Shown piece by piece: positions 15,917-57,884 of a DNA stretch of 64,000 nt (within the stretch, counting starts at the first letter, position 1; the number at the start of each line of letters is the position of its first letter). The notes below the pieces were generated by a model. It saw only the letters and a list, made by a program, of their open reading frames with translations. It was not told the DNA's origin and ran no database searches. The translations under genes and the position numbers were made by a program. The DNA comes from a gamma proteobacterium symbiont of Taylorina sp. (GTDB taxonomy: Bacteria > Pseudomonadota > Gammaproteobacteria > GRL18), in contig JAHXIV010000082.1 of NCBI GenBank assembly GCA_025655455.1, forward strand, positions 1-64,000, given 5' to 3'.

Positions 15917-15920
15917 CCTA

Positions 15921-16014
15921 AGAGCCATCGGCCAATGAAATTTTCACCACTGTCGCTTTGCAAACATTTTTCCTGCAAAGAGTATAATGGTGACAAATTC
16001 ATGTTTGATAAGAG
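15921..16014 (+). repeat. Dispersed palindromic element, copy A
   Basis: Arms 15935-15962 and 15974-16002 form an imperfect stem (TCACCACTGTCGCTTTGCA against TGCAAAG...GGTGACAAA) around a short loop. CAAACAT (15961-15967) is also complementary to ATGTTTG (16001-16007), directly after the stem. TAAGAG occurs at both ends of the element. It starts 5 bases after the M48 lipoprotein stop codon and ends in the leader of the nitroreductase gene. Confidence 0.85.
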
Positions 16015-16025
16015 AGAGTGACATA

Positions 16026-16700
16026 ATGAGTGACAAGACACGATTAAAGCAGCAGTTTACTAAAATGATGCAATTTCGTCATGCCTGTAAAGTTTTTGAC
16101 GAGACAAAAAAGATTCCACACGAAGATTTTAATTATATTCTCGAATCTGCCCGGCTCTCCCCCAGCTCTTTTGGCTTTGAGCCATGGAAATTTCTTATCA
16201 TCCAGGATGCAAAACTAAGAGAAAAAATAAAACAACACACCTGGGGAGCACAAAATTCTTTACCAACTGCCAGTCATTTCATTATTACTTTGGCAAGAAC
16301 TGAAAAATCCATGCATTTTAACAGTGACTATATTCAATACATGATGGAAAAGATACATCATATTCCTGAAGAAGGACGTCTGATGAGAAAAAAGTTTTAT
16401 CAACAATTTCAGGAGCACGATTTTAACTTAACACAAAATGATAAAACTATGCAGGACTGGGCAAAAAAACAGACTTATATTGCCTTAGCCAATATGATGA
16501 ATGCAGCAGCATTTATTAACATCGACACCTGCCCTATTGAAGGTTTTAAAGAAGATAACATCAATCAATTACTGGCTGATGAATTTGATATTGACACTGC
16601 AGAGTTCAAAGTTTCTCATATGCTTGCCTTTGGTTATAGAATCAATGAGCCTGGAGAAAAAACCCGCTTACCACTGCAAGAGATTAGCCGCTGGTATTAG
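16026..16700 (+). CDS. Nitroreductase-family NAD(P)H oxidoreductase
   Basis: The 224 residues show the nitroreductase fold: QFRHACKVFDETKKIPHEDF near the N-terminus (the R-x-S/A-x-R region of FMN binding), LESARLSPSSFGFEPWKFLI, and the later INIDTCPIEGFKEDNINQLL. It should be an FMN flavoenzyme reducing nitro compounds or quinones. The ATG at 16026 is preceded by AGAGAGAGTGA. An in-frame ATG at 15987 would add 13 residues, but that stretch is part of repeat copy A and is rejected. Copy B of the repeat follows this gene. Confidence 0.9.
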   Translation: MSDKTRLKQQFTKMMQFRHACKVFDETKKIPHEDFNYILESARLSPSSFGFEPWKFLIIQDAKLREKIKQHTWGAQNSLPTASHFIITLARTEKSMHFNSDYIQYMMEKIHHIPEEGRLMRKKFYQQFQEHDFNLTQNDKTMQDWAKKQTYIALANMMNAAAFINIDTCPIEGFKEDNINQLLADEFDIDTAEFKVSHMLAFGYRINEPGEKTRLPLQEISRWY

Positions 16701-16730
16701 GGTGTCTGCCATGGCAGCATGACTCAAACT

Positions 16731-16825
16731 AAGAGCCATCGGCCAATGATTTTTTCGCCGCTGTCGCTTTGCAAACATTTTTTCCTGCAAAGAGATAGTG
16801 GTGATAAATTCATGTTTGATAAGAG
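16731..16825 (+). repeat. Dispersed palindromic element, copy B
   Basis: It is about 90% like copy A. The arms retain pairing through G-U-compatible changes (CGCCGC opposite GTGGTG, where copy A has CACCAC). CAAACAT (16772-16778) and ATGTTTG (16812-16818) are 40 bases apart, the same as in copy A. It begins 30 bases after the nitroreductase stop codon. Confidence 0.85.
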
Positions 16826-16956: not shown

Positions 16957-17844
16957 ATGATAGCTTTTTTTAATAATGCAGTCGTAATAGGGTTTGCAGG
17001 ACTTATTGCAGACTATATTCGTAAACGATATCAACAACATAAACAAGCTCAGGAAAAACAAGATGAACTTCTGAATGACTTGTCTTACCATATGGCGAAC
17101 GTAATTGGAGAGACAAGTGTGTTAATTATGGAATTATCTAACTGTTTAACTGGCGGTAAAGTAGATTTTGAAATGCTTGACTCTCATAAAGTTGCCTGGA
17201 ACGAGAGTATTATGGAATGGAATAATTCTAATGCTGTCTATTATTACAAAATACAAAAGTTGACTGCAAAACCGCATTCCGCAGCAAAGTTATTTAGAGA
17301 TACTGATTTTAGTGAGGAAATATTAATTGTTGGTAAGAAAGTAAAAATAGAAGAGAAAACTACTTTGGTTTCTGCTGTTTGGATATTATCCAAGATGATT
17401 TTACGTGTATTACCAAGTTATGAAGCAATACTGCATGAACTTCAAATTCTTCTTGAGAAGAAAGGTAATCCGGAACTTATAGAGGCCACAATACAAGTTT
17501 TGGATAATATGGAAGATAATATTAAACCCAGTTCTCAGTCTTATACCATTGAAGAAATTAAGAAGATTTTATTAGACCAAGACAATGAAAGAAACGATTT
17601 AGAAGACTGGTTATTTAATAAAAGCACAAAATTACTTTCTAGTTGCTATCGTGATTTACTAATAGACACTAAAGGATCTTCTAAACCATTTTTACCAGAT
17701 AGTGATGATGAAAAGCTCGTTTATAATGTACTTTGGCTGCTAGATAGATATAAAGAGATGTTTGGTTTATTCGCTCAAGTAGATAAAAAAATTCAAGAAT
17801 TCATTCCTGTACTTCATAAAGAATTTCAAAAAGCAAAATATTGA
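16957..17844 (+). CDS. Unknown protein with N-terminal membrane anchor
   Basis: A well-placed AGGAGT ribosome site precedes this 295-residue protein. Residues ~3-20 are a hydrophobic helix followed by basic RKRYQQHKQ, so the rest should be cytoplasmic. The body is predominantly helical with acidic segments, includes a second hydrophobic stretch (LVSAVWILSKMILRVL near 140), and has no recognised catalytic motif. It is bounded by repeat copy B upstream and a convergent giant gene downstream. No family was recognised. Its position at the start of an accessory region suggests acquired DNA. Confidence 0.7.
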   Translation: MIAFFNNAVVIGFAGLIADYIRKRYQQHKQAQEKQDELLNDLSYHMANVIGETSVLIMELSNCLTGGKVDFEMLDSHKVAWNESIMEWNNSNAVYYYKIQKLTAKPHSAAKLFRDTDFSEEILIVGKKVKIEEKTTLVSAVWILSKMILRVLPSYEAILHELQILLEKKGNPELIEATIQVLDNMEDNIKPSSQSYTIEEIKKILLDQDNERNDLEDWLFNKSTKLLSSCYRDLLIDTKGSSKPFLPDSDDEKLVYNVLWLLDRYKEMFGLFAQVDKKIQEFIPVLHKEFQKAKY

Positions 17845-26775: not shown

Positions 26776-26879
26776 AAAGTTCTCTCCTACAACTAATTAT
26801 CATACCTTCATTTATAGAAATTTAATGTTACTATAAATGATGGTGGCCAAATTCAAGTTTGGCTAAAGGCTACACACAT

Positions 26880-34229: not shown

Positions 34230-35282
34230 ATGGCAAAACGAAAGTTAAGCCGCCGCCAGGAATGGCGTATAAAAAAAATTCAGGAGGAGCGCTTAGCTAG
34301 AGCAAATAATAAGCAGGAACGTGCCTCTGAAAATATTGAACAGCTACAGGAAACACTCTACCATGGTATTGTCGTCAGTCATTTTGGAGCTTCTCTGGAT
34401 GTAGAAACAATTGAAAGTGGAAAAATAATCCGTTGTGCCCTGCGGCAAAATATTAATTCTATTGTCTGCGGCGACAGGGTGATTTGGCAAAAAGTAAATA
34501 ACATTCCGGAAGACGAACAAATCCAGGGTATTATTACCGCTTTACAACCAAGAACAACAGTACTTGCACGGCCGGACTTTAATACTCAAATGAAAGCGGT
34601 GGCGGCCAATATTGATCAGATGCTGATCGTTATTTCTCCAATTCCTGAACTGAATGAAGGATTGATCGATCGTTATCTGGTTGCTGCAGAATTATCCCAT
34701 ATTCAGGCTGTTTTAGTACTCAATAAAGTAGATACTCTCTCTGATGAACAAAGAACATTATTAGAAAAGCGCATTAAAACCTATCAGGATATTCACTACC
34801 CCGTTCTTTATACCAGTGCAAAAAGTCAGTATGGATTAAACAGTCTCTATCGGCAGTTATCCGGAAAAACCAGTGTTTTTGTTGGTCAGTCAGGAGTAGG
34901 TAAATCCTCTCTGATCAATGCCCTGCTGCCCGAAGCAAAAATCAAAGAAGGCAGGGTCTCTGAAAAAACCAATAAAGGCACTCATACCACAAGTATTTCA
35001 AGGCTTTATCATTTAAAGTTAAATCAATTTATAGAAGAAAGTAACTTGATCGATTCTCCCGGAGTACGGGAATTTGGCTTATGGGATATTAAAAAAGACG
35101 ATGTTATCCATGGCTTTGTCGAACTGCATCAACAGGCTGAAAACTGCCGCTTCAGAAATTGCAAACATCTGAATGAACCGGGCTGCAATTTGCTCAAGGC
35201 CATAGAGAATAATGAAATCAATCCACTCAGACTGGATAGTTATCATCGAATTGTTGAATCTTTGGAGCCTTCAGCCAAATGA
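34230..35282 (+). CDS. rsgA: Ribosome small-subunit maturation GTPase RsgA
   Basis: A basic N-terminus (KRKLSRRQEWRIKKIQEE) and OB fold precede a circularly permuted GTPase: G4 VLNKVD, G1 GQSGVGKSSLINALLP, then G2/G3 (TTSISRLYHL; DSPGVREFGLW). The C-terminal zinc site is CRFRNCKHLNEPGC. It matures the 30S subunit late in assembly. The last codons (Ser-Ala-Lys-stop and just before) lie in the start of a dispersed palindromic element, so the C-terminus was probably overwritten or extended by the element. TAAGG precedes the ATG. Confidence 0.96.
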   Translation: MAKRKLSRRQEWRIKKIQEERLARANNKQERASENIEQLQETLYHGIVVSHFGASLDVETIESGKIIRCALRQNINSIVCGDRVIWQKVNNIPEDEQIQGIITALQPRTTVLARPDFNTQMKAVAANIDQMLIVISPIPELNEGLIDRYLVAAELSHIQAVLVLNKVDTLSDEQRTLLEKRIKTYQDIHYPVLYTSAKSQYGLNSLYRQLSGKTSVFVGQSGVGKSSLINALLPEAKIKEGRVSEKTNKGTHTTSISRLYHLKLNQFIEESNLIDSPGVREFGLWDIKKDDVIHGFVELHQQAENCRFRNCKHLNEPGCNLLKAIENNEINPLRLDSYHRIVESLEPSAK

Positions 35283-35353
35283 AATTTATCGCTGTTGCTT
35301 TGCTAACATTTTTATAGCAAAGAAAGACAGTGAAAAATTTCATGTTAGATAAA
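35264..35353 (+). repeat. Dispersed palindromic element, copy C
   Basis: It includes the rsgA stop codon. The arms around GCTGTTGCTTTGCTAACAT / ATAGCAAAGAAAGACAGTG pair as in copies A and B. The loop reads CTAACAT (35303-35309) and the downstream motif reads ATGTTAG (35342-35348), so the base change is compensated. A 15-base direct repeat (AGCCTTCAGCCAAAT) occurs at 35266-35280 and 35354-35368, suggesting a partial tandem copy. Confidence 0.8.
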
Positions 35354-35374
35354 AGCCTTCAGCCAAATAAAATT

Positions 35375-57386: not shown

Positions 57387-57719
57387 ATGAAAACTTTAAC
57401 AACTTTAATTATTGCAACTGCAGCTTCTTTTTCTCTGAATGCCAATGCTATTGATGTTGATACATTAAGTGCTGGTGAGATATTCCCGATTCAGAATCCT
57501 GCCATTCAGGAACAGATGAAGACTGTTTCAGCTAAGACCGACGGCCTGGAGTATGATATTGATTCAGAAACACTGGTTTATCTGAATGCATCTGAGAAAC
57601 AATCTGTTGCAAGTGTTTTACATGAACTGGAAAGCAATCCTCCTGCAGCAGGTAATAGCAAAGGTAAAAAAAATATTTTTATCTGGAATGAAAATGGAGG
57701 TGAATATCATCTCCAATAG
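57387..57719 (+). CDS. Unknown small exported protein
   Basis: AAGGA precedes the ATG. A signal peptide (ending LNANA) leads to a 90-residue mature protein starting IDVDTLSAGEIFPIQNPAIQ, with ASEKQSVASVLHELESNPPA and a Lys/Gly-rich part before a beta-like end (NIFIWNENGGEYHLQ). No Cys and no catalytic motif are seen. It is divergent from the sulfur-globule-like gene and is followed four bases later by repeat copy D. Confidence 0.7.
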   Translation: MKTLTTLIIATAASFSLNANAIDVDTLSAGEIFPIQNPAIQEQMKTVSAKTDGLEYDIDSETLVYLNASEKQSVASVLHELESNPPAAGNSKGKKNIFIWNENGGEYHLQ

Positions 57720-57723
57720 AAGT

Positions 57724-57812
57724 TGACAGCAAATAAAAATATACCACTGTCGCTTTGCAAACATATTTACCATTGCAAATAAGACAGGGGTATATTTTTA
57801 TGTTTGATAATA
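57724..57812 (+). repeat. Dispersed palindromic element, copy D
   Basis: The arms AAAATATACCACTGTCGCTTTGCAA and TTGCAAATAAGACAGGGGTATATTTTT pair well. Compared with copy A, both sides of the outer stem changed together (TTCACC/GGTGAC versus TATACC/GGTATA). CAAACAT (57758-57764) and ATGTTTG (57800-57806) are again complementary. It begins 4 bases after the stop codon of the exported-protein gene. Confidence 0.85.
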
Positions 57813-57884
57813 GGATAATACAATGAATGCAAAACACTTTACACTATAAAAGAGTTTTGATAAAAAGTTAAACAGATGTATCAA

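Follow-up and report, generated by a model that had tools for sequence, protein, structure and literature searches.

Dispersed palindromes with matching loop and tail motifs and a short insertion target in a gammaproteobacterial symbiont

The 64,000-nucleotide stretch analyzed here (the window; positions 1 to 64,000 of contig JAHXIV010000082.1, assembly GCA_025655455.1) belongs to a gammaproteobacterial symbiont of Taylorina sp. and contains two palindromes, copies A (15921-16014, + strand) and B (16732-16825, +), which are 84% identical over 100 nt. Copies C (35264-35355, +) and D (57719-57813, +) are further members of the same family. A first-pass annotation of the window had described A and B as repeats, and both their identity and their + strand folds, which beat those of shuffled sequences, bear this out. 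The elements and their parts lie as follows.

15919-15924, + strand: left target hexamer TAAGAG of copy A, on the host side of the insertion point (from the target logo and an empty site at another copy)
15925-16014, + strand: inserted element of copy A, 90 nt, with head CCATCGGCC, long stem, loop, tail and terminal TAAGAG
15961-15967, + strand: loop motif CAAACAT of copy A (from covariation)
16001-16007, + strand: tail motif ATGTTTG of copy A, complement of the loop (from covariation)
16009-16014, + strand: terminal TAAGAG of copy A, the element-encoded right end that re-creates the target
16730-16735, + strand: left target hexamer TAAGAG of copy B
16736-16825, + strand: inserted element of copy B, 90 nt
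16772-16778, + strand: loop motif CAAACAT of copy B
16812-16818, + strand: tail motif ATGTTTG of copy B
35268-35355, + strand: element of copy C, sub-type 1b (loop CTAACAT, 35303-35309; tail ATGTTAG, 35342-35348)
57719-57813, + strand: copy D, a type-1 element with a degenerate head
26803-26871, - strand: truncated type-2 element, absent from the annotation's list, with loop TAGTAACAT and the right end lost; its stem is unrelated to that of type 1 and its head is the same

Copies, ends and target of the palindromes

Searching the symbiont's own genome (G000; other G numbers denote genomes of relatives, L numbers the sequence stretches that were read) with a 1001-base query recovered dozens more copies, many of them in head-to-tail arrays of 87-88 bp. 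A covariance model, which the annotation had proposed running on the genome and which we built from 42 copies, gave at least 133 matches at E ≤ 0.001, a lower bound since 150 candidates were scored with it. These genome-wide counts rest on the searches and on 622 kb of fetched G000 stretches, within which 101 non-redundant type-1 copies were found. No Rfam family reached its gathering score for the element.

The elements share a layout of head (YCNTCRGCC), stem, loop, stem and a tail ending in ATGTTNGATAAGAG. Their ends, read at 91 left and 96 right junctions, are (TAAGAG)CCNTC and GATAAGAG, respectively, and the genome contains 72 instances of the exact tail ATGTTWGATAAGAG versus 0 of its reversed control. 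The left flank of 49 isolated copies is TAAGAG (T40, A34, A40, G46, A49 and G46 of 49), while the right flank shows no motif except a shortage of G at +1. As the right end of the element repeats the target hexamer, each copy offers a target for the next, and in tandem arrays neighboring units share TAAGAG.

The copy in L256, upstream of an Hsp70-like gene, reads GAAGTAGAGTTATGAG/CCGTCAGCC...ATGTTAGATAAGAG/CCAGTACAG (slashes mark the boundaries). This site is filled in G000 and empty in G005, G007 and G012 of the same genus, where it reads TTATGAG/CCAGTA (GAAGTAGAGTTATGAG/CCAGTATAG or near variants), and the boundary of the element is fixed by this comparison with three relatives. In G019, from another genus, an element of a different subtype sits at the same nucleotide, which suggests two independent insertions. 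For copies A and B no empty site was obtained, the relatives being too diverged there. The annotation's alternative of a mobile palindrome thus gains support from the dispersed copies, the tandem arrays, the empty site and the TAAGAG target.

Thirteen type-2 copies have GAG at the end of the left side and AAG at the end of the element, so a target duplication of 3 bp or more is ruled out. Insertion takes place 3′ of a short, fixed target and, save for a possible 2 bp (AG), duplicates none of it, as in IS200/IS605-type mobility.

Strand-specific folding and the loop-tail match

With DNA parameters, the + strands of copies A and B fold at -13.8 kcal (z -2.9) and -16.6 kcal (z -3.9), and 0 of 200 shuffles were as good. 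RNAalifold on a MAFFT alignment missed the long stem because arm lengths vary, and an arm-swap test was used in its place. Across 116 distinct copies, own arms pair at a mean of -20.8 kcal versus -15.7 kcal for swapped arms, and the best of 10,000 permutations reached -17.0 kcal; as the copies are related, this is not a clean p-value. That differences between the arms keep pairing, as the annotation had noted for A and B, therefore holds over the family. The wobble pairs it had noted are also real, with the correction that the + strand carries them (205 G.T versus 78 A.C), an excess that makes the + strand the folded one and the structure strand-specific. Under DNA parameters 94 of 120 copies, and under RNA parameters 82 of 120, are more stable on this strand; type 2 follows the same trend.

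The annotation had further seen that the loop CAAACAT is complementary to the tail ATGTTTG. Among 144 copies with both motifs, this combination occurs 59 times and CTAACAT/ATGTTAG 18 times, and the central loop/tail base is A-T in 100, T-A in 24, A/A in 9, T/T in 5 and another combination in 6 (Fisher's test 7e-15, on copies that are related). A third code, AGAACAT/ATGTTCT, is found in L233 and in the left-hand neighbor of the L073 copy. When that neighbor is compared with L055, the intervening ATTAAAATCTCACATAAGACAGCTGCAGCTTTTT is near-identical and the codes differ (AGAACAT/ATGTTCT versus CTAACAT/ATGTTAG), the switch of loop and tail breaking the inner stem. The code of types 2 and 3, whose stems are unrelated, is AGTAAC/GTTACT, and hybrids between the two types have unmatched arms and retain this code.

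Judged by this covariation, the loop-to-tail pairing is genuine and conserved. The annotation had suggested a pseudoknot or an alternative fold; the pairing stands, while a pseudoknot formed together with the full stem is doubtful, as on geometric grounds a stem of about 20 bp without a linker would hardly leave room for both in one molecule. The pairing is probably an alternative state or forms between strands. It might be asked whether the complementarities are mere by-products of quasi-palindrome correction, that is, hairpin-templated replication errors, combined with recombined halves. Mosaic halves do exist and template switching can make arms match, but the tail lies outside the stem, and in the L055 comparison loop and tail both changed while the DNA between them did not and the inner stem was broken, so we hold this to be very unlikely.

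The same observations bear on two other readings. In a classical miniature inverted-repeat transposable element (MITE), a DDE transposase would act on terminal inverted repeats in double-stranded DNA and leave a 2-bp (AG) duplication. The imperfect inverted arms reach nearly both ends, many bacterial MITEs look similar (PMC10969869) and a duplication of 2 bp is compatible with the data. This explanation is nevertheless unlikely, as the target logo is confined to one side, duplication of 3 bp is ruled out, the wobble bias shows that one strand folds, several copies are hybrids that persist although their arms do not match, and the loop/tail match would be left unexplained.

Alternatively, an RNA copy of the + strand could guide or template the movement (in a bridge-RNA-like, omega-RNA-like or reverse-transcribed form), its loop reading the element's own end. 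The tolerance of the + strand fold for G.T recalls G-U in RNA, and a co-varying loop matched to its own end resembles donor recognition by bridge RNAs. Against this stand the lack of an Rfam match, a strand preference that is clearer with DNA than with RNA parameters, and the absence of any IS110 recombinase from G000, G001 and G006, on which ground an IS110 bridge-RNA element was rejected (TnpB and reverse transcriptases were not searched); we regard an RNA guide as distinctly improbable.

Placement relative to genes

In 18 cases, a full-length copy lies within a frame that stays open for at least 50 codons on each side. Two of them (L017 and L009) lie in masked tandem arrays and were left out; the remaining 16 fall in 15 different genes of G000, G001 and G006, where the in-frame palindrome encodes a conserved peptide, e.g., KSPRPINSPAVVLQTSSPANKTEGEFMFDK. 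Family searches identified the host genes as those of PrmC, HisC, PepN, MutL, RibD, HrpA, an RluA-type synthase and others. In PrmC, two tandem copies form a 58-residue insert that is missing from 20 orthologues of the bacterial family; in the AlphaFold model this insert (44-99) has a predicted local distance difference test score (pLDDT) below 50 and is predicted to be disordered, the rest of the fold being confident. The alignment of HisC to PDB 3euc is likewise interrupted at the insert. All 12 intragenic copies with measurable ends are 87 nt long, and the lengths of the other copies modulo three are spread over 38, 22 and 19 cases (38 of 79 divisible by three). Genes such as prmC, hisC, mutL and hrpA thus tolerate inserts of 29 to 58 residues.

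Gene borders are affected as well. The head of copy C supplies the last residues of rsgA (PSAK) and its TGA stop, and the tail of the L256 element (1470-1558, - strand) supplies a possible start codon and the first residues (ATGTTAGATAAGAGC, MLDKS) of the Hsp70-like gene.

The annotation had taken the position of all four copies, each just past the 3′ end of a same-strand gene, as pointing to an RNA element of 3′ untranslated regions (3′-UTRs) or to insertion after stops. Copies C and D sit between convergent genes, where such a position is automatic and so carries little weight. At 94 independent sites, elements within co-directional gene pairs have the same sense in 37 cases and the opposite sense in 21 (p = 0.048), with 19 further sites divergent and 6 convergent. 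Insertion after stops is no rule either, copies being found in frame inside genes and between divergent genes. A cis-acting RNA element, in the 3′-UTR or elsewhere, that is retained because it regulates genes would agree with the weak same-strand excess and the strong RNA hairpins, but the 21 opposite and 19 divergent sites, the insertions in the coding sequence of 15 genes and the sites that are empty in close relatives have already largely refuted it, and we consider it extremely improbable. The orientation bias could instead be explained by the purine-rich target, which resembles a ribosome-binding site.

Candidate mechanism, known elements and relatives

From these patterns we infer, leaning only slightly towards acceptance of the whole, that copies A-D are members of a non-autonomous family of mobile palindromes with a unit of about 87-90 nt, inserted in trans by an IS200/IS605-like single-strand reaction in which the loop guides recognition of the right end. 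The + strand would move as single-stranded DNA (ssDNA), cut and joined by a trans-acting HUH-type enzyme that would recognize the hairpin; the loop (NNNAACAT), serving as a guide, would pair with the tail (ATGTTNNN) beside the right cleavage site AAGAG. Each insertion would present a new TAAGAG target, giving rise to head-to-tail arrays, and those copies whose frame is free and whose length is a multiple of three would survive inside genes, as Rickettsia palindromic elements (RPE) do. More tentatively, and less likely than not, the loop might be a nucleic-acid guide in cis, the folded + strand (as ssDNA or its RNA) recognizing its own right end. If so, the element would read itself and could split into types with separate loop/tail codes, each maintained within its type, a recognition mode undescribed for RPE or for repetitive extragenic palindromic sequences (REPs) and a route by which RPE-like palindromes could move.

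Several observations weigh against single-strand insertion by such an enzyme. Y1 proteins occur in the genomes searched, none of them tied to the palindromes, and no transposase or other enzyme could be linked to the family there. A single IS200-type TnpA lacks flanking ends of the family type and was dismissed as the mover for this reason. A 280-aa RAYT-like protein is present in most of the genus and syntenic in G000 and G001 (L081:1009-1848, - strand; L077:1429-2268, + strand); its HUH histidines are gone, as is the region of the catalytic tyrosine, and it has gained a C-terminal helix-turn-helix-like end, resembling a RAYT subclass with a C-terminal domain that is described as not REP-associated (PMC6006769). 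An intact RAYT of 230-240 aa occurs in some genomes only and was undetected in G001 (76% complete) and G012, though both carry the head. Beyond the enzymes, the IS200/IS605 guide sits 5′ of the hairpin foot and the guide-like motif of the present family in the loop, insertion may entail a 2-bp AG duplication, and the copies in L255, L257, L264 and L265 have a common internal deletion at the microhomology GCAAATAA, with loop and left arm gone and head and tail kept.

Other candidates were examined and set aside. The exact head is missing at the RAYT-like loci read in G000, G001, G003, G005, G007, G008, G011-G015, G021 and G022, and one mini copy lies near a RAYT-like locus of G006 (L080), the sole such locus with a head nearby; since heads do not flank RAYT genes and the 280-aa protein has no HUH motif, RAYT was rejected as the enzyme. 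An integron attC site (RYYYAAC ... GTTRRRY at its ends) does not fit, as AAC lies in the loop and not at the left end, and GTTTGAT and GTTACTT do not match GTTRRRY. Twenty tails without an exact head nearby proved degenerate, deleted, partial or solo, with no obvious gene-carrying element within the 125 nt examined, and a long autonomous element was dropped.

Palindromes that insert in frame in essential genes became known from Rickettsia, and we know of no account of how they move. Compared by behavior, the family appears closest to these RPE, dispersed palindromes roughly 150 bp long and inserted 44 times in R. conorii, many of them in frame in unrelated genes and encoding a similar peptide (PMC10969869). 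It shares in-frame insertion, here in 15 unrelated genes at surface-like positions (the PrmC insert being modeled as disordered). It differs in its shorter length (87-90 nt), in its lineage, in lacking at either end the CGTC tag reported for some RPE (PMC3733652), and in that the target, an empty site, the strand and the loop-tail covariation have all been worked out here.

The family also seems to work like an IS200/IS605 end or a REP, yet we assign it to neither, since it has no linked enzyme and lacks the REP tags. IS200/IS605 ends, as in IS608, combine a one-sided target, one active hairpin strand, an element-coded right end and a short complementarity that picks the cleavage site (PMC6006769, PMC8266576). 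The family has a one-sided target, a single folded strand, an element-coded right end and a short complementarity too, but its guide-like motif, placed in the hairpin loop, would read the tail over 7 bases, and no TnpA in this genome carries its ends. REPs are small high-copy palindromes, tandem or paired, between and within genes (PMC3733652), and are thought to move as single strands (PMC8266576). In contrast to GTAG/CGTC REPs and REPINs, which RAYTs mobilize, the tag here is AAGAG, neither GTAG nor CGTC, at the 91 left and 96 right ends; the unit is one long asymmetric hairpin instead of two REPs, and heads were found near just one of the RAYT-like loci read. The TAACTGA repeats of Beggiatoaceae, short tandem repeats in marine sulfur-bacterial genomes that partly lie within open reading frames (ORFs) (PMC4679880), differ in sequence, being heptamers without a palindrome.

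In this gammaproteobacterial lineage of marine metagenome-assembled genomes, insertion point, empty site, active strand and loop/tail code can all be read from sequence, which opens the question of mobility to direct tests with short synthetic elements. G000 has 47 occurrences of the head AAGAGCCNTCAGCC, which is present in 15 of the 16 genomes of the genus and in most genomes of genus g3 of the same bacterial family, while 33 genomes outside that family gave two single matches, no more than the reversed control. All the related palindrome types that were found belong to this genus and family, and close copies are present in two named genomes, CSMAG_1671 (DAOVUE01) and C1.bin.13 (JADFVK01).

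In other species the head is mostly alone or in arrays of 18, 21 or 24 bp, some apparently inside genes. Such occurrences of AAGAGCCNTCAGC were read in L191, L193, L201, L206, L209, L217, L226 and L227 (G005, G008, G012 and G015), and some arrays in relatives are apparently translated in frame as repeats, e.g., EEPSAN and KEPSAS. Within the window, no Pfam family matches the ORF directly after copy B (16957-17841, + strand); part of this ORF is found again, at 88-92% identity, at G000:C4:72786 and in both G005 and G007, as might be expected of a mobile gene.
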